From assembly GCA_024919215.1 (NCBI GenBank), contig CP103437.1:124001-188000 (forward strand): DNA of 64,000 bases. The letters run 5' to 3'. Shown here piece by piece: positions 11,129-50,808 of this stretch. Positions within the stretch are counted from its first letter, which is position 1; every line of letters begins with the position of its first letter. The notes beneath the pieces are model-generated. The model did not search any database. It saw nothing but the letters and a program-made list of their open reading frames with translations, and was not told the DNA's origin. Both the position numbers and the translations under genes were made by a program. This DNA is from Methylophilaceae bacterium LSUCC0665 (GTDB taxonomy: Bacteria; Pseudomonadota; Gammaproteobacteria; Burkholderiales; Methylophilaceae).

Positions 11129-11806
11129 ATGGTTATTATTAGATTATCAAGAAGTGGTTCCAAAAAGAAACCTTATTATAACGTAGTGGTTCAAGACTCA
11201 CGTAAACGAAGAGATGGTCGTTTTATTGAGCGTGTTGGCTTCTACAATCCAATGGCACAATCAGGAGCTGAAAGTTTAAGGCTTGATCAAGAAAGAATTG
11301 CTTATTGGAAAGACAATGGGGCTCAAATTTCAGAAACAATGTCTAGAATTATCAAATTACAGGCAAAAGGCCCGACTGGCCTAGAAGCCATGAAACAAAA
11401 AGATTTGAAAAAAGCTGAAGCAAAGAAAGCGAAAAAAGCAGCTGAAAAAGCTGCAGCAGCAGAGCCTGTAGCTGAAGAAGCTGCTGCTCCTGCTGAAGAA
11501 GCTGCTGCTCCTGCTGAAGAAGCTGCTGCTCCTGCTGAAGAAGCTGCTGCTCCTGCTGAAGAAGCTGCTGCTCCTGCTGAAGAAGCTGCTGCTCCTGCTG
11601 AAGAAGCTGCTGCTCCTGCTGAAGAAGCTGCTGCTGAAGAAGCTGCTGCTCCTGCTGAAGAAGCTGCTGCTCCTGCTGAAGAAGCTGCTGCTCCTGCTGA
11701 AGAAGCTGCTGCTCCTGCTGAAGAAGCTGCTGCTCCTGCTGAAGAAGCTGCTGCTCCTGCTGAAGAAGCTGCTGCTCCTGCTGAGGAAGCGCCTAAAGAA
11801 GAATAA
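11129..11806 (+). CDS. rpsP: Ribosomal protein S16 with a long repetitive C-terminal tail
   Basis: Residues 1 to about 80 are a normal S16 ([21 protein letters not shown], then [10 protein letters not shown]). The family usually ends near 80-90 residues, but this protein has 225. After a Lys/Ala-rich linker (about 90-112), residues about 118-220 consist of AAAPAEE heptads, encoded by a 21-bp tandem repeat. The tail should be acidic, disordered and exposed on the 30S subunit. The operon continues with rimM, trmD and rplS, the usual order. Confidence 0.95.
11480..11788 (+). repeat. 21-bp tandem repeat inside rpsP
   Basis: Fourteen in-frame 21-bp units (GCTGCTGCT then CCTGCTGAAGAA) encode AAAPAEE. 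Seven precede and seven follow one short 15-bp unit at 11627-11641, which lacks the CCTGCT hexamer. The DNA units are nearly identical even at third positions; only the last copy carries GAG for GAA. This implies recent expansion or ongoing homogenisation by slippage or recombination. Such an array can also be miscounted in short-read assembly. Confidence 0.95.
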
Positions 11807-13082: not shown

Positions 13083-13628
13083 ATGACAAACATTATTCAA
13101 ACTATTGAAAAAGAAGAAATTGCGCGTCTTGGCAAAAAAATCCCTAAATTTGCTCCTGGTGATACCGTTGCTGTTGGCGTAAACGTTGTTGAGGGAGAGC
13201 GAAAAAGAGTTCAGGTCTTTGAGGGCGTTGTGATTGCCAGAAAAAATAGAGGACTTAACTCTTCTTTTATCGTGAGAAAAATATCTTCCGGAGAGGGTGT
13301 TGAGAGAACCTTCCAACTTCACTCACCTTTAATAGATTCAATTGAAGTTAAACGACGTGGTAACGTTCGTCGTGCAAAACTGTTCTATTTAAGAGAGCGT
13401 TCAGGTAAGTCTGCGCGTATTAAGGAAAGATTGAAAGCGCGTGAGTCTGATTCTCAATATGAAGCAATTCCTGAAGTAGAATTGGCTGAAGCACCAGCTC
13501 AAGATGCAGCTCCTGCTGAAGCACCAGCTCAAGATGCAGCTCCTGCTGAAGCACCAGCTCAAGATGCAGCTCCTGCTGAAGCACCAGCTCAAGATGCAGC
13601 TCCTGCTGAAGACAAAAAAGATGCTTAA
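13083..13628 (+). CDS. rplS: Ribosomal protein L19 with a repetitive C-terminal tail
   Basis: Residues 1 to about 115 are a normal L19 ([19 protein letters not shown], then [23 protein letters not shown]). The family normally ends near 115-130 residues, but this copy reaches 181. Residues about 135-174 are four decapeptides [10 protein letters not shown] encoded by a 30-bp tandem repeat, then a short DKKDA end. The tail resembles the one on S16 from the same operon in composition but not in repeat unit. Confidence 0.95.
13485..13604 (+). repeat. 30-bp tandem repeat inside rplS
   Basis: Four consecutive 30-bp units, each starting GCTGAAGCACCAGCTC, are identical in DNA and encode [10 protein letters not shown]. 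They are followed by a partial unit (GCTGAA) and the end of the gene. Identity at synonymous positions points to recent expansion. Confidence 0.95.
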
Positions 13629-45245: not shown

Positions 45246-47123
45246 ATGAAATTAAATAAAATCAAATTAGCTCTTGGTTTAGTAGCTGGTTTTGCTGCTG
45301 CAGCACCTATGGTTGCTTCAGCTGCTGCTGATCAAGAAAAAGCTATTGCTGATGCGAACAATTGGGCTCACCCACGTGGTAACCACACAAACAATGGTCA
45401 CTCAGCATTAACTCAAATTAACAAAGGTAACGTTAAGAACCTTAAAGCTGCATGGACATTCGCGACTGGTGTTAACCGTGGTCACGAAGGCTCACCATTA
45501 GTTATTGGTAGCACAATGTATGTTCACACAGCGTTCCCAAACAACGTTTACGCTTTAGACCTTAACAACGATCAAAAAATCGTTTGGTCATATTTCCCAA
45601 AACAAGATCCAAGCGTTCAAGCAGTTTTATGCTGTGACAACGTTAACCGTGGTCTAGGTTTTGGTGACGGTAAAATCTTCTTACAACAGAACGACGGTAT
45701 CATGGTTGCTTTAGATGCTAAAACTGGTAAAGAAGTTTGGACTGCTAGAATTACAGATCCTAAAGTTGGTGCTACAAACACATCAGCTCCACACGTAATC
45801 AAAGACAAAGTTCTTCAAGGTTGCTCAGGTGCTGAATTTGGTGTTCGTTGCTTCTTCACAGCTCTTAACACAAAAGACGGTTCAGTAGCTTGGAAAGCAT
45901 ACTCAACAGGTCCAGATAAAGAAGTTCTTATCGGTGCTGACTTCAACAAAGATACACCTTTATACTCAGCTCTATCAGTTTACGAAGATGTAAACGGTGG
46001 TAACAAACAAGGTGGTTCTTTCAAAAAAATCCCTACTGACCAACTTAAAGGCGGCGAAACAGACTTAGGTCTTAAAACATGGTTAAAACCACAAGCTGTT
46101 AAAGATGGTTGGCAACATGGTGGTGGCTCTGTTTGGGGCTGGTGGCCATATGATGCAAAAACAAACTTAGTGTACTACGGTACAGGTAACCCATCAGTTT
46201 GGAACCCAGACGTTCGTCCAGGTGACAACAAATGGTCTATGACAGTTTTTGCTCGTGACTTAGATACAGGTATGGCTCGTTGGGGTATGCAAATGACACC
46301 ACACGACGAATGGGATTACGACGGTATTAACGAAGTTATCTTATTTGACAAAGGTGGTAAAACATATGCTTGGCACCACGATAGAAACGGTTTTGCTTAT
46401 ACATGGCAAGCTGACAACGGTGTTTTAGTTGCTGCTGAAAAAGTTCACCCATTCGTGAACTGGGCAACAGACGTTGACATGAAATCTGGTGTTCCAAACA
46501 AAGTTGCAGAACACGCAACTCACCAAGACTACAACACTAAAGGTACATGTCCAGCTGCTTTAGGTACTAAAGACCAACAGCCTGCTGCATACTCACCTAA
46601 AACAGGTTTAGTCTACTCACCAATGAACCACGTATGTATGACATACGAGCCAGTTGAATCTAAATACGTTGCTGGTCAGCCATGGGTTGGTGCGACATTA
46701 ACAATGTTCGCTGGTCCTGACGGTGTTATGGGCGGTTTTGCTGCTTATGACCCAATGACTAACAAAAAAGTATGGTACAACAAAGAGAAATTCTCAGCTT
46801 GGGGCGGTGCTTTAACTACTGACTCAGACTTAGTATTCTACGGTACTTTAGATCGTTGGTTAAAAGCTCTTGACGCGAAAAGCGGTAAAGAACTTTGGAA
46901 ATTCCAAGTTGGTTCAGGTGTTATTGGTAATGCCTTCACATACGGCCACAAAGGTAAGCAATACGTAGGTGTGCTTTCTGGTATCGGTGGTTGGGCTGGT
47001 GTTGCTATGAACCTAGGTCTAACAAATGACACAGACGCACTTGGTGCTGCTGGTGGTTATAAAGAACTAACAAAATACAACGCTGCTCCTGGCGGCGGTG
47101 CATTAACAGTATTTAGCTTATAA
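45246..47123 (+). CDS. xoxF: Lanthanide-dependent methanol dehydrogenase XoxF
   Basis: XoxF is a periplasmic PQQ enzyme that oxidises methanol. It has a signal peptide (about 1-26), the PQQ-site adjacent cysteines (CC at 129-130), the tryptophan-docking repeats of the eight-bladed propeller, and catalytic D357 followed by D359 (EWDYDGINE). The second Asp is the mark of lanthanide rather than calcium binding. At 625 residues it is about 25 longer than most XoxF because of an insert near residues 245-270 (NGGNKQGGSFKKIP). C-ending codons such as AAC and TTC are enriched relative to neighbours, a sign of very high expression. Confidence 0.97.
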   Translation: MKLNKIKLALGLVAGFAAAAPMVASAAADQEKAIADANNWAHPRGNHTNNGHSALTQINKGNVKNLKAAWTFATGVNRGHEGSPLVIGSTMYVHTAFPNNVYALDLNNDQKIVWSYFPKQDPSVQAVLCCDNVNRGLGFGDGKIFLQQNDGIMVALDAKTGKEVWTARITDPKVGATNTSAPHVIKDKVLQGCSGAEFGVRCFFTALNTKDGSVAWKAYSTGPDKEVLIGADFNKDTPLYSALSVYEDVNGGNKQGGSFKKIPTDQLKGGETDLGLKTWLKPQAVKDGWQHGGGSVWGWWPYDAKTNLVYYGTGNPSVWNPDVRPGDNKWSMTVFARDLDTGMARWGMQMTPHDEWDYDGINEVILFDKGGKTYAWHHDRNGFAYTWQADNGVLVAAEKVHPFVNWATDVDMKSGVPNKVAEHATHQDYNTKGTCPAALGTKDQQPAAYSPKTGLVYSPMNHVCMTYEPVESKYVAGQPWVGATLTMFAGPDGVMGGFAAYDPMTNKKVWYNKEKFSAWGGALTTDSDLVFYGTLDRWLKALDAKSGKELWKFQVGSGVIGNAFTYGHKGKQYVGVLSGIGGWAGVAMNLGLTNDTDALGAAGGYKELTKYNAAPGGGALTVFSL

Positions 47124-47168
47124 TTTTCGAATTATAAGAAACTAATTACTAGTTAGTTAGTCTTACAA

Positions 47169-47198
47169 ACACCCTACTTCGGTAGGGTGTTTTTTTTT
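47169..47198 (+). terminator. Strong terminator after xoxF
   Basis: ACACCCTAC and GTAGGGTGT form a 9-bp stem with a TTCG tetraloop, followed by nine T. This should cut most transcription between xoxF and xoxJ, letting xoxF be expressed well above xoxJ. A TATAAT at 47202-47207 directly after it may be the -10 of an xoxJ promoter. Confidence 0.92.
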
Positions 47199-47241
47199 GT
47201 GTATAATCACGACAGTAAATAAATTTAAGGAAAAGTTGAAC

Positions 47242-48120
47242 ATGCTAAAAAAAGGATTGATAGGAATCATGGTGGTATTTACATCTCCATTCGCGATGTT
47301 AGAGGCTTATGCTAATGACATTTATAATGACGGCAAGGTAGGTGAGGTAAGACGAGTACCAGGTGATAATGAATTTAAAGTTTGCGCAGATTCCAATAAC
47401 TTGCCTTACTCTAATGACAAAGGCGAAGGCTTTGAAAATAAGATTGCAGAACTACTTGCTGCAGATATGGGTAAGGAATTATCTTATCAGTATTGGTTCG
47501 ATCGCTTTGGTTACTTAAGAAATACATTAAATGCATGGCGGTGTGATTATCTGATTGGCACCAACACAACTTACGATGCAGTAGACACAACCAAACCATA
47601 TTATCGTGCTGGACATGTGTTCATCTATCGAAAAGATAGCGGATTAAATATTAAAGATTTTAAATCAGAAGATTTACGTAAGGTTGAGATTGGTATAAAA
47701 GATAAAAGTCCGGTAGCTGTTGCTCTCAACGATCATGACCTAATGGCCAATGCAAGACCTTATCGCATTCAACGTGATCTCACAGAATCACCAGGTAAGT
47801 TAGTGCAAGACGTAATTGACGGTGTCGTGGATGTAGCGATTGAGTGGGGACCAATTGGTGGTTATTACGCAAAACAATCAGGCGTTGATCTTGTGGTTGT
47901 TCCGGTTCCAGAATATGAACAAGTGAAAAAGACTGGTAAAACATATTGGAATATTTCTGCAGGTGTTAGAAAAAGAGAAGCTGAACGACGCGATGAAATT
48001 GAAGCTGTGATCATGAGAAATAAAGATAAGATTTTAAAAATTCTTGATGATTATGGTATTCCACATGCGGAACCTGTTTTTGGAAGTAACTTAGACGGTT
48101 ATAAGCGTCATAAAAACTAA
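47242..48120 (+). CDS. xoxJ: Periplasmic binding-type protein XoxJ
   Basis: XoxJ is the MoxJ/MxaJ-like solute-binding protein found next to xoxF. It may assist XoxF activation. The 292-residue protein has a signal peptide (about 1-24, ending AYAN), FKVCADSNNLPYSNDKGEGFENKIAELLA (split) typical of SBP family 3, and two Cys that can form a disulfide. The frame is open from 47197, but ATG 47242 with the signal peptide is the natural start. Confidence 0.92.
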   Translation: MLKKGLIGIMVVFTSPFAMLEAYANDIYNDGKVGEVRRVPGDNEFKVCADSNNLPYSNDKGEGFENKIAELLAADMGKELSYQYWFDRFGYLRNTLNAWRCDYLIGTNTTYDAVDTTKPYYRAGHVFIYRKDSGLNIKDFKSEDLRKVEIGIKDKSPVAVALNDHDLMANARPYRIQRDLTESPGKLVQDVIDGVVDVAIEWGPIGGYYAKQSGVDLVVVPVPEYEQVKKTGKTYWNISAGVRKREAERRDEIEAVIMRNKDKILKILDDYGIPHAEPVFGSNLDGYKRHKN

Positions 48121-48150
48121 CATGTAAATAAATTGTAAAAAAATGTTTAA

Positions 48151-48180
48151 AAAGGGGTGTTTTTTCACCCCTTTTTTTAT
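48151..48180 (+). terminator. Terminator after xoxJ
   Basis: AAAGGGGTG and CACCCCTTT form a 9-bp stem with a T-only loop, followed by a T run. It separates xoxJ from xoxG. Confidence 0.9.
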
Positions 48181-48278
48181 ATAATATTCGCTAGTTATTG
48201 ACTACCTCAGATCAAGATTTTAAATAACCCTGATAGTTATAAATTATTAAACTATTAATCATTTTTGATAGTCTTGAT

Positions 48279-48328: not shown

Positions 48329-48820
48329 ATGTTTTCAAAGAAAGTAGTAGTGTCATCACTATTAGCTGCATTAGTTGGAATATCAACACTAGCTTACGCT
48401 AATGTTAAGTTTGTTAAAACAACTGACAATAGTGAAATTACATTCCCTAAAGAAGCATTAGTTGGTACAGATGCTGAAAAAGAATTCTTAGCCACTGGTA
48501 AAAATATTTACGTTGGTGACGCTGAAGCAATTAAAACGGGTAAAAAACGTTACAACCTGTGGTCATGTACACAGTGCCACGGCCCAACAGCTAAAGGTCA
48601 AGTAGGCCCAGGTCTTACTGGTCCAAAATACAACTATGCTAAAGACACAACCAACAAAGGTATGTTTGAAACTATCTGGGCTGGTACAAACGGCGGTATG
48701 GGTGGCAAAGGCTACGGTATTATGGCAGCTGATGATGGTGTAACTGTAGATGAGTTACTTAAAATTATTGCTTTCGTAAGAAGTAACAGTAAAGATTTAA
48801 CTGGTAACGAAGGTCTATAA
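48329..48820 (+). CDS. xoxG: Cytochrome cL-type electron acceptor XoxG
   Basis: XoxG takes electrons from XoxF. The 163-residue protein has a signal peptide (about 1-24, ending LAYA), one c-type haem site C80-T-Q-C83-H84, and a Met-containing C-terminal half (GGMGGKGYGIM) that probably supplies the sixth ligand. The ribosome-binding site AGGAG is good. From residue 26 to 161 it is identical, in DNA as well, to the second gene at 48904. Confidence 0.95.
   Translation: MFSKKVVVSSLLAALVGISTLAYANVKFVKTTDNSEITFPKEALVGTDAEKEFLATGKNIYVGDAEAIKTGKKRYNLWSCTQCHGPTAKGQVGPGLTGPKYNYAKDTTNKGMFETIWAGTNGGMGGKGYGIMAADDGVTVDELLKIIAFVRSNSKDLTGNEGL
48405..48811 (+). repeat. 407-bp exact direct repeat, copy 1 (in xoxG)
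   Basis: This block is identical to 49064-49470 by base-by-base reading. It begins just after the signal peptide and ends in the fifth codon before the stop. Leaders, intergenic DNA and the last codons differ between copies. Confidence 0.96.
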
Positions 48821-48856
48821 TTCTTCGCGACTAACGAGTTACATCTAGTTTATAAT

Positions 48857-48888
48857 AACGGCTGATATATTATCAGCCGTTTTTTTTG
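48857..48888 (+). terminator. Terminator between the two cytochrome genes
   Basis: AACGGCTGATA and TATCAGCCGTT make a perfect 11-bp stem with a three-base loop and a T run. The second cytochrome gene starts only 16 bases later, so it depends on read-through or a promoter inside xoxG or the hairpin region. Confidence 0.92.
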
Positions 48889-48903
48889 TGATCTGGGAGG
48901 ATT

Positions 48904-49473
48904 ATGAAGTTTATTAGTGTGTTTTTTTTATCACTTGCAGTATTAGCATGTTCAGAAAAAAATAGTGAGCAAGCAGTAGATGATAATCAACTAACTCCTG
49001 AAAAACAATCTGAATCTAATAATCAAGCCTTAAATATTTCTGTCATTAATACTACGGAAAGCATTAAGTTTGTTAAAACAACTGACAATAGTGAAATTAC
49101 ATTCCCTAAAGAAGCATTAGTTGGTACAGATGCTGAAAAAGAATTCTTAGCCACTGGTAAAAATATTTACGTTGGTGACGCTGAAGCAATTAAAACGGGT
49201 AAAAAACGTTACAACCTGTGGTCATGTACACAGTGCCACGGCCCAACAGCTAAAGGTCAAGTAGGCCCAGGTCTTACTGGTCCAAAATACAACTATGCTA
49301 AAGACACAACCAACAAAGGTATGTTTGAAACTATCTGGGCTGGTACAAACGGCGGTATGGGTGGCAAAGGCTACGGTATTATGGCAGCTGATGATGGTGT
49401 AACTGTAGATGAGTTACTTAAAATTATTGCTTTCGTAAGAAGTAACAGTAAAGATTTAACTGGTAACGAATAA
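48904..49473 (+). CDS. Lipoprotein-anchored duplicate of XoxG
   Basis: This 189-residue cytochrome c has a lipoprotein leader (FLSLAVLACSEKNSEQ, lipid Cys at about 16), a 35-residue Ser/Asn/Gln-rich spacer, and then the same haem domain as xoxG (C108-T-Q-C111-H112). It should be tethered to a membrane while XoxG is soluble. Asp/Ser after the Cys does not clearly give an inner-membrane retention signal (Ser at +2), so outer-membrane sorting is possible. It has a GGGAGG ribosome-binding site. Confidence 0.92.
   Translation: MKFISVFFLSLAVLACSEKNSEQAVDDNQLTPEKQSESNNQALNISVINTTESIKFVKTTDNSEITFPKEALVGTDAEKEFLATGKNIYVGDAEAIKTGKKRYNLWSCTQCHGPTAKGQVGPGLTGPKYNYAKDTTNKGMFETIWAGTNGGMGGKGYGIMAADDGVTVDELLKIIAFVRSNSKDLTGNE
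49064..49470 (+). repeat. 407-bp exact direct repeat, copy 2 (in the lipoprotein cytochrome)
   Basis: This is the second copy of 48405-48811 at a constant offset of 659 bases. Complete identity at synonymous sites means a very recent duplication, ongoing gene conversion, or an assembly artefact. Confidence 0.96.
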
Positions 49474-49485
49474 AAGGAAAATCAT

Positions 49486-50808
49486 TTGGAAAATCTGCAT
49501 CGGGTAGTGATTGTTGGCGGTGGTGCTGGCGGGCTTGAGTTAGCAACAAAATTAGGTAATACCTTAGGCAAGAAAAAAATTGCAGAAATTATTTTAATTG
49601 ATGCTAAAAAAACTCACGTCTGGAAACCATTGCTTCACGAAATTGCAGCAGGTAGTTTAAATCCAGACAAAGATGAATTGGAATATTTGGCTCAAGCACA
49701 TTGGCATCATTTCAAGTTTAGATATGGTCGGGTTAATCAAGTTGATAGCCAGAACAAAACAGTGTCTATTGAACCCACTTATGATATAGACGGAACTGAA
49801 ATTATCCCTTTGCGTAAAATTAAGTATGACACCTTAGTGTTATCTGTTGGAAGTACTGTTAATGATTTTAATATTCCAGGCGCAAAAGAATTTGCAGTCG
49901 CCTTAGATACTCAGGATCAAGCTGAGCGTTTCCATCAAAAATTACATAATTCAATTTTAAGAGCTCAAACGCAAAAAGGTTCAGTCAGACCGGGTCAGCT
50001 AGAGGTGATAATTGTGGGTGGTGGAGCAACTGGGGTGGAGTTAGCTGCTGAGCTTCACAAAGCTACTCGTGAAATGACTGCTTATGGATTAGATCGAGTA
50101 AACCCTGACCGTGACATTAGCATCTCTCTAGTTGAGGCAAGTAATCGCTTACTTCCAGCATTGCCAGTAAAAATCAGTACGTCAGTAGAGTCTGAGTTGC
50201 GTAAATTAAACGTAAAGTTATTTTTAGGTGAGCGTGTGACTAAGGTCACAAAAGATGGCATTGAGACTCAGTCGGGAAAAAAAATTATTTCATCCCTTGT
50301 CGTTTGGGCTGCAGGTATTAAGGCTCCAGAATTTCTGTCACATATTAAAGGCATAGAAACAAATTCTATTCATCAGATCAAAGTTGAATCGACATTACAA
50401 AGTACTTCGAATACTGATATTTTTGCATTTGGTGACTGCGCAGCATGCCCAGTTAAACCAGGATCTGATCTATTAGTTCCTCCAAGAGCACAAGCTGCTC
50501 ATCAACAAGCATCTATGCTCTATAAATCTATTAAATCCAAAGTGTTAAAACCTAACAAGGCATTAGCCAACTATGTATATAAAGATTATGGCTCTTTAGT
50601 TAATTTAGGAAGATATTCAACTGTGGGAAATTTAATGGGGTCACTGCTTGGGGGGAGCATGTTTGTTGAGGGATTAATTGCTCGCTTAATGTATCTTATG
50701 CTATATCAAATGCATTTATCAGCTTTACATGGAGTAGTTAGTGTTGTCTTTAGATTATTAGGTAAGATTATTTCCAGAAGAACTGAGGCTAGAGTAAAAC
50801 TTCATTAA
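49486..50808 (+). CDS. ndh: Type II NADH dehydrogenase-like FAD oxidoreductase
   Basis: This 440-residue protein resembles NDH-2, which passes electrons from NADH to quinone without pumping protons. It has the FAD motif VVIVGGGAGGLELATKLG, the NAD(P) motif VIIVGGGATGVELAAEL, FAFGDCAACP and a C-terminal amphipathic region (residues about 390-425) for membrane binding. Translation starts at TTG 49486 with AAAGGA before it. It is 12 bases after the lipoprotein cytochrome, so the two are probably cotranscribed. Confidence 0.9.
   Translation: MENLHRVVIVGGGAGGLELATKLGNTLGKKKIAEIILIDAKKTHVWKPLLHEIAAGSLNPDKDELEYLAQAHWHHFKFRYGRVNQVDSQNKTVSIEPTYDIDGTEIIPLRKIKYDTLVLSVGSTVNDFNIPGAKEFAVALDTQDQAERFHQKLHNSILRAQTQKGSVRPGQLEVIIVGGGATGVELAAELHKATREMTAYGLDRVNPDRDISISLVEASNRLLPALPVKISTSVESELRKLNVKLFLGERVTKVTKDGIETQSGKKIISSLVVWAAGIKAPEFLSHIKGIETNSIHQIKVESTLQSTSNTDIFAFGDCAACPVKPGSDLLVPPRAQAAHQQASMLYKSIKSKVLKPNKALANYVYKDYGSLVNLGRYSTVGNLMGSLLGGSMFVEGLIARLMYLMLYQMHLSALHGVVSVVFRLLGKIISRRTEARVKLH

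Follow-up and report, generated by a model that had tools for sequence, protein, structure and literature searches.

How do two neighbouring cytochrome genes come to be identical in the part that binds haem and unlike in the part that carries the export signal? This question is raised by a locus in Methylophilaceae bacterium LSUCC0665, from which we analysed a 64,000-nucleotide stretch of DNA, hereafter the window. By direct sequence comparison, positions 48405-48811 of the window match positions 49064-49470 exactly over 407 bp, at an offset of 659, and the match is bounded on either flank by the first mismatching base; a second search recovered the same repeat pair, given as 300 nt. This block is the mature haem domain in each of two genes that lie in tandem, here called copy A and copy B, whose leaders do not match each other. 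The identity extends to synonymous sites, with 0 differences over about 89 of them between the two copies. An earlier note on this DNA had reported the identity, synonymous sites included, and explained it by recent copying or gene conversion; its facts proved right, save for the length of one spacer, and the meaning it gave them only partly so. The LSUCC0665 genome (G000) is a single contig of 1,311,651 bp and is 99.81% complete. We place the window in the marine OM43 clade of the Methylophilaceae because members of its genus include KB13 (G001), LSUCC0717 (G013), LSUCC0401 (G007) and HTCC2181 (G002). Repeats of another kind occur elsewhere in the window: an ORF at 11129-11806 has a long repeat tail (AEEAAAP) built from 15.5 copies of a 21-nt repeat, and an ORF at 13083-13628 has one built from 4.2 copies of a 30-nt repeat, 100% matching. 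We take these ORFs to encode ribosomal proteins S16 and L19.

All features of the locus lie on the forward (+) strand. The gene at 45246-47123 encodes a PQQ methanol dehydrogenase that scores 600 bits against TIGR03075 (cut-off 480). Its two best PDB matches are XoxF structures (6oc5, E 1e-199; 6dam, E 9e-195), MxaF-type chains rank lower, and its position is conserved in relatives; on these matches we identify it as XoxF, the lanthanide-dependent type. A moxJ-like gene for a periplasmic binding protein (xoxJ) follows at 47242-48120 (TIGR03871, 261.9 bits, cut-off 212). Copy A (48329-48820, 163 aa) and copy B (48904-49473, 189 aa) are thus linked to xoxF and xoxJ. Each exceeds the PF00034 cut-off and contains one CxxCH haem site, CTQCH in both (48566-48580 in A, 49225-49239 in B), as expected of a class I cytochrome domain. 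The closest solved relatives of copy A are cytochrome cL structures (2d0w, E 4e-20; 7c90, E 1e-19), and an AlphaFold2 model of copy B without haem, which is of low confidence (mean pLDDT 65) including in parts of the haem domain, has 7c90 as its best Foldseek match (E 6e-7). The earlier note had called these proteins XoxG, and the domain and PDB matches beside xoxF bear this out. Their scores of 89.5 and 88.7 bits fall below the cut-off of 147.8 of the NCBIfam model TIGR03872 (MoxG), and we therefore call them xoxG-like, not MoxG proper. In Methylomonas, XoxF has been reported to reduce XoxG4 (PMC5874918), and by analogy the present type of XoxG may be reduced by XoxF as well.

The gene that ends the cluster, at 49486-50808 and 12 bp 3' of copy B, encodes an FAD/NAD(P) oxidoreductase (PF07992); among proteins of solved structure, NDH-2 enzymes are nearest to it (YjlD 9pxk, E 6e-30). 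Among the NCBIfam matches listed for it (25 of 30) none reaches its cut-off, the best being TIGR03169 with 135 against 310 bits, and it gives one match in its own genome. No export signal is visible in its sequence, so we read it as an NDH-2 of the cytosolic side; the other arrangement considered was a flavocytochrome-like complex with copy B.

The two copies begin with different export signals, as the earlier note had recognized. Copy A has a Sec-type leader, MFSKKVVVSSLLAALVGISTLAYA, and is predicted to be a soluble periplasmic cytochrome. Copy B starts with MKFISVFFLSLAVLAC, followed by SE; its lipobox, VLAC (48940-48951), places a Cys at residue 16 before Ser-Glu, and the protein is predicted to be a lipoprotein. 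The shared block starts in codon 54 of B, which leaves 37 residues between the lipobox Cys and the block, not the 35 given previously. This tether (48952-49063) varies between species, and residues 35-51 have pLDDT values below 50 in the AlphaFold2 model. In all 13 B genes of the genus, a short hydrophobic signal is followed by a lipobox Cys. Across family loci, a lipobox pattern of our own making, written after the sequences had been viewed, matches 57 of 59 B genes but none of 41 A genes with a B-like domain; the two B genes that it missed (L109, L122) have a Cys at the expected position nonetheless. It also matches 1 of 18 A genes of a distinct domain type (CC type, described below) and 4 of 19 single-copy genes. 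One of these four, in L092, has a lipobox and looks like a B gene, and the other three, with hydrophobic residues after the Cys, are read as false matches. These counts are a fairer figure than an alignment of 46 rows (the window and 45 of the 57 B genes already known to have a lipobox), in which the invariance of Cys16 is partly by construction because the rows were preselected for it. C108, C111 and H112 of copy B are also invariant in that alignment.

The residue at +2 bears on the likely destination of copy B. In the sorting rule of E. coli, Asp at +2 decides the membrane to which a lipoprotein goes, and Ser predicts the outer membrane. The +2 residue is Ser in 13 of 13 B genes of the genus, and family-wide it is Gly in 28, Ser in 20, Asn in 9 and Asp in 2 (59 of 60 B genes, by a looser pattern). 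LolCE and LolA are above cut-off in the LSUCC0665 genome; LolB (PF03550) was not found there by a model that matched only E. coli among 14 control genomes, and LolB may be divergent or absent. If the E. coli rules hold, the predicted destination of copy B is the outer membrane, and it may vary in the family because 2 of 59 B genes have Asp at +2. We infer the lipidation of copy B, its membrane of residence and its role from sequence, which predicts a free copy A and a membrane-tethered copy B.

The tandem arrangement is neither new nor peculiar to this strain. All 31 genomes of the genus contain at least a fragment of the cytochrome gene. Thirteen have the A-B pair in the same order and with the same flanks, KB13, LSUCC0717 and LSUCC0401 among them, and 14 have one full-length copy. 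In G019 (also L116) the contig stops 47 bases past its single gene, where a second copy could be missed; G027 has a broken gene, and in G004, G010 and G014 (L059, L060 and L061) contigs begin or end inside the cytochrome gene. Wherever a contig extends that far, the flanking genes agree throughout the genus, and several streamlined lineages have a single copy only. Copy B would be dispensable in 13 genomes of the genus, because it is absent there beside the single gene.

Family-wide, a match at E 1e-12 was obtained in 173 of 187 genomes. Two or more cytochromes are present at 59 of 78 loci, 11 of them from the OM43 genus; these loci come from the best 80 of 96 relatives, a set from which very near relatives of the window may be omitted. 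The tandem pair is also found in Methylophilus, Methylotenera, Methylovorus, Methylobacillus and Novimethylophilus. Methylopumilus is mixed, with one cytochrome in L078 and L082 and two in L120 (assigned by title). The 59 include two loci (L096, L122) in which moxJ and the oxidoreductase are separated by a tandem array of three cytochromes; the middle cytochrome of L122 has a CC-type-looking domain behind a lipobox-like leader. Among the 19 one-cytochrome loci, L136 and L139 are other loci, and L092 and L106 begin near contig ends. Three records, L106, L111 and L141, have titles naming Flavobacteriaceae, Rhodobacteraceae and Sulfuritalea, yet their xox loci group with Methylophilaceae; they are possibly mixed or mislabelled bins. 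In a sample of 60 genomes from the order, searched at E 1e-15, intact matches were confined to the window genome and one other member of the family, and one further genome matched with stops. We conclude from this distribution that the tandem duplication is old, and the presence of the pair in several genera rules out a recent one-off duplication, the part of the earlier explanation that does not stand.

The intergenic sequences are conserved together with the genes. A terminator-like hairpin with a T run occupies the gap between A and B (48857-48881), directly preceded by TATAAT (48851-48856), and another lies 3' of xoxF (47167-47192), with TATAAT at 47202. Terminator-like sites in the window region are not above chance (3 against 4.0), nor are sites in a promoter scan (16 against a mean of 18.7 in shuffled sequence); because the scan count is no more than chance, we argue for the hairpins from their conservation. 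The A-B hairpin is present in 12 of 13 gaps of the genus, where the scan required stems of 6, and in 44 of 45 examined gaps of other genera, where stems of 5 were allowed. TATAAT occurs in all 26 examined genus gaps that follow A or a single copy, in many of them as the hairpin loop, but in other genera only 11 of 45 A-B gaps contain it. In the xox cluster of the window, hairpins contain or adjoin this hexamer at 48851-48881, 47167-47207 and 48149-48185. The combination may represent an overlapping terminator and promoter. The earlier note had proposed that B is cotranscribed with the NDH-2-like gene. This is plausible in the window, with its 12-bp gap, and the gap is 8-19 bp in 12 of 13 genus pairs (56 bp in G022), but a hairpin separates A from B, and outside the genus the B-oxidoreductase gap is 47-220 bp. 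Copy A probably ends alone, at its terminator, and copy B is probably read together with the oxidoreductase in OM43. In the 13 single-copy genomes in which the gap is complete, 87-133 bp with TATAAT precede the oxidoreductase. Recombination between the repeats would have deleted that gap, which suggests that B was probably lost in another way.

The haem domains of A and B are 98.8-100% identical in DNA in 7 of the 13 genus pairs (G000, G003, G007, G012, G013, G023 and G029), when the best orthologue of either copy is at 81-96%. KB13 stands outside these seven: its A and B domains are 94.1% identical, and the best orthologues are at 93.6% for A and 96.1% for B. The domains are 76.6% identical in G024 and 62-68% identical in G005, G006, G008 and G022. 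Paralogues are closer than orthologues in 8 of 60 pairs of the family-wide set (best 80 of 96 relatives), which overlaps the genus set; 6 of the 8 are from OM43. A tree that forces all 13 B domains together, with four sets of identical A/B rows left free, is rejected, its log-likelihood being 261 lower (p 1.8e-67). The edges of the shared tracts tell the same story. All 5 A-B differences in G003 fall within 7 nt and all 4 in G012 within the first 9 nt (0 of 2000 permutations in each case), and the one difference in the window is at the first column, that is, at the edge (20 of 2000 permutations). This permutation test, on the longest shared run, which carries no information for the four fully identical pairs, gave no conversion signal in G001 (248 of 2000), G024 (241 of 2000) or the four divergent pairs.

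The leaders, in contrast, have remained apart. In G001, G003, G013 and G029, the A leader has at most one substitution relative to the window's (0-1 of 25 residues), and the B leaders of the same four genomes have 25-29 of 52 residues in common with that of the window. The B leaders of G007 and G023 are identical at 40 of 47 residues; others are too diverged for a good alignment, and for them orthology is taken from position and lipobox. In none of the 13 genus pairs was the B leader copied from its own A leader (4-11 identities over 23-32 aligned residues). Because the tree with the B domains together is rejected while the leaders remain distinct, we conclude that the haem domain alone is homogenised, by gene conversion, as far as trees that rest on few columns can establish this. 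Gene conversion is the part of the earlier explanation that is favored by the tree conflict and the distinct leaders. The conversion probably proceeds through homologous recombination between the tandem domains, and it would halt where homology ends, at the leader on one flank and the stop codon on the other.

Other routes to near-identical domains have to be weighed against gene conversion. Exact repeats are prone to mis-assembly, and an assembler could have doubled one gene; contigs do break inside the gene in 3 of 31 genomes (G004, G010, G014), as real repeats can also cause in short-read assemblies. The leaders differ, however, and the comparison with related strains that the earlier note had called for finds the pair in 13 of 31 genus genomes, in independent assemblies that include records titled as complete genomes (LSUCC0717 and LSUCC0401), so that an assembly duplication is ruled out and retains a negligible probability. 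An equally negligible probability attaches to strong selection on the protein alone. Between species such selection is evident, since the window and G029, the nearest genome for copy A, differ at 21 synonymous (24%) and only 2 non-synonymous sites, yet the synonymous sites of A and B are identical too (0 differences in about 89), and this rules the explanation out. Separate duplications in individual lineages would account for the tandem location and for the clustering by genome of several A and B domains in the DNA tree. They are a poor explanation, and in our judgement an improbable one, because the leaders are distinct, the position of B before the oxidoreductase is conserved and the hairpin recurs in 12 of 13 A-B gaps: 0 of 13 B leaders resemble the genome's own A leader, and all 13 have the lipobox. 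Each lineage would need an existing, old B leader to acquire nothing but a haem domain, fused to it in frame, and that would amount to gene conversion.

If gene conversion homogenised the domains, its direction can be read from genomes that escaped it. A branch of the genus DNA tree with support of 100/99 has on one side the 14 single-copy genes and the A genes of G005, G006, G008 and G022, and on the other all 13 B domains and the remaining 9 A domains. In G024 and in the window's subclade, the soluble genes therefore combine an A leader with a lipoprotein-type domain. The locus tree joins G024 to G006 and G008 (100/100), both of which have the older type of A gene; the placement of G024 thus points to a second, separate replacement, and to at least 2 in the genus. 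The apparent net copying is from the lipoprotein gene to the soluble gene, at least twice, on the assumption that the unconverted A genes and the single-copy genes represent the older A type. In the genus DNA tree the lipoprotein-type domain thus appears as the donor rather than as a late copy of the soluble one.

A similar pattern is seen family-wide. Eighteen A genes encode a distinct domain with the motif TCxNPY (the CC type), which forms one clade (98/88) on a long branch, and the remaining 42 A domains, like the 19 single-copy ones, are interspersed with the 60 B domains in a family tree whose bootstrap had not converged. CC-type and B-like A genes have leader features in common. For example, L079 and the CC gene of L121 have A leaders that are 72% identical although their domains are only 48% alike, and the A domain of L079 matches the B domain of the same locus at 79% identity. 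Such a contrast between leader and domain is present in 9 of 11 A genes compared, chosen from 41; in the other two, L109 and L114, the domains are about equally like the Methylovorus CC gene of L100 and their own B. CC hosts are scattered on the tree of flanking genes (72 of 78 loci, a quick method, with a root of our choosing), which requires 7 changes, 6 of them forced by starred branches. The simplest reading is that the soluble-type domain was replaced by the lipoprotein-type domain some 6-7 times in the family. Alternatively, the CC domain may have been gained by transfer into several lineages, the lipoprotein-like soluble domain being ancestral in the family, and the single clade on its long branch would fit this. 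We consider transfer rather unlikely, given the leader features common to the two kinds of A gene, hosts that include Methylobacillus and Novimethylophilus and are scattered (under our chosen root), and a direction in the OM43 genus that comes from a separate DNA tree.

From the identity, the conserved pairing, the distinct leaders, the tree conflict and the tract edges read in these genomes, we think it likely that the locus holds an old pair of paralogues, a soluble XoxG (A) and a lipid-anchored one (B), that serve XoxF and whose haem domains are homogenised by recurrent conversion. XoxF would pass electrons to XoxG; copy A would be the free, mobile carrier to a terminal oxidase, and copy B an anchored acceptor with the same surface on a lipid anchor. 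The likely role of the pair would be to offer a single XoxF docking and haem surface at two places. What maintains the conversion is a more speculative matter. It could be real and functionally neutral, with tandem homologues exchanging by chance and the lipoprotein a dispensable relic, as might be suggested by the 13 genus genomes, and the Methylopumilus loci L078 and L082, in which a single gene stands without B. A relic should decay, however, and B retains its frame, its position and its lipobox (57 of 59 loci by pattern) though its tether varies. We give this neutral reading well under an even chance. Slightly less probable still, and put forward tentatively, is that selection and not chance proximity drives the conversion: the anchored, probably outer-membrane-facing XoxG would be a master copy that is stamped onto the soluble carrier, and XoxF would coevolve with one docking surface. 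If so, methanol respiration in Methylophilaceae would run through a two-place periplasmic relay. A lipid-anchored XoxG, if widespread, would add a membrane-bound step, and the pair offers a way to test whether a shared partner interface is maintained by conversion.

The gene cluster itself has been described. A strongly conserved xoxFJGG cluster with a "NADH reductase"-like gene was reported in Methylophilaceae in 2014 (PMC4109929), in the same order as here: xoxF, xoxJ, two xoxG genes and the oxidoreductase. The part of that paper available to us makes no mention of a lipoprotein, differing leaders, identical domains or conversion. Methylophilaceae XoxG proteins have since been divided into XoxG1 and XoxG2 (PMC5723320). 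Among the literature matches listed, a search whose scope takes in few subscription papers, none reports a lipoprotein XoxG or conversion of xoxG, and in papers containing both "xoxG" and "lipoprotein" the latter term denotes other proteins. The tandem pair is thus already known; for the unlike anchors and the recurrent replacement of the soluble domain, our searches turned up no published account.

Both copies resemble XoxG and cytochrome cL of solved structure (PDB 7c90, 2d0w, 2c8s) in their single-haem cL-type domain and adjoin xoxF; they differ from cytochrome cL in falling below the MoxG cut-off and, for B, in being a predicted lipoprotein. A survey of long-lasting concerted evolution covers 26 prokaryotic genes, among them the cycA and cycB genes of ammonia oxidisers (PMC6053082). 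Like A and B, these are paralogues closer within species than to their orthologues, and the set includes c-type cytochromes of oxidation pathways; xoxG is not among the entries in the portion of that paper at hand. The nearest evolutionary parallel is mtrA-1 and mtrA-2 of methanogens (PMC4632066): tandem paralogues whose working domain has long been homogenised by conversion and whose membrane-anchoring parts differ. The mtrA genes form one operon and encode an archaeal methyltransferase with C-terminal membrane segments, and mtrA-2 has been overwritten from mtrA-1. Here, the protein is a bacterial c-type cytochrome with N-terminal export signals. The xoxG pair would thus parallel mtrA in a bacterium: its two proteins are distinguished chiefly by destination, and their working domain is repeatedly overwritten.
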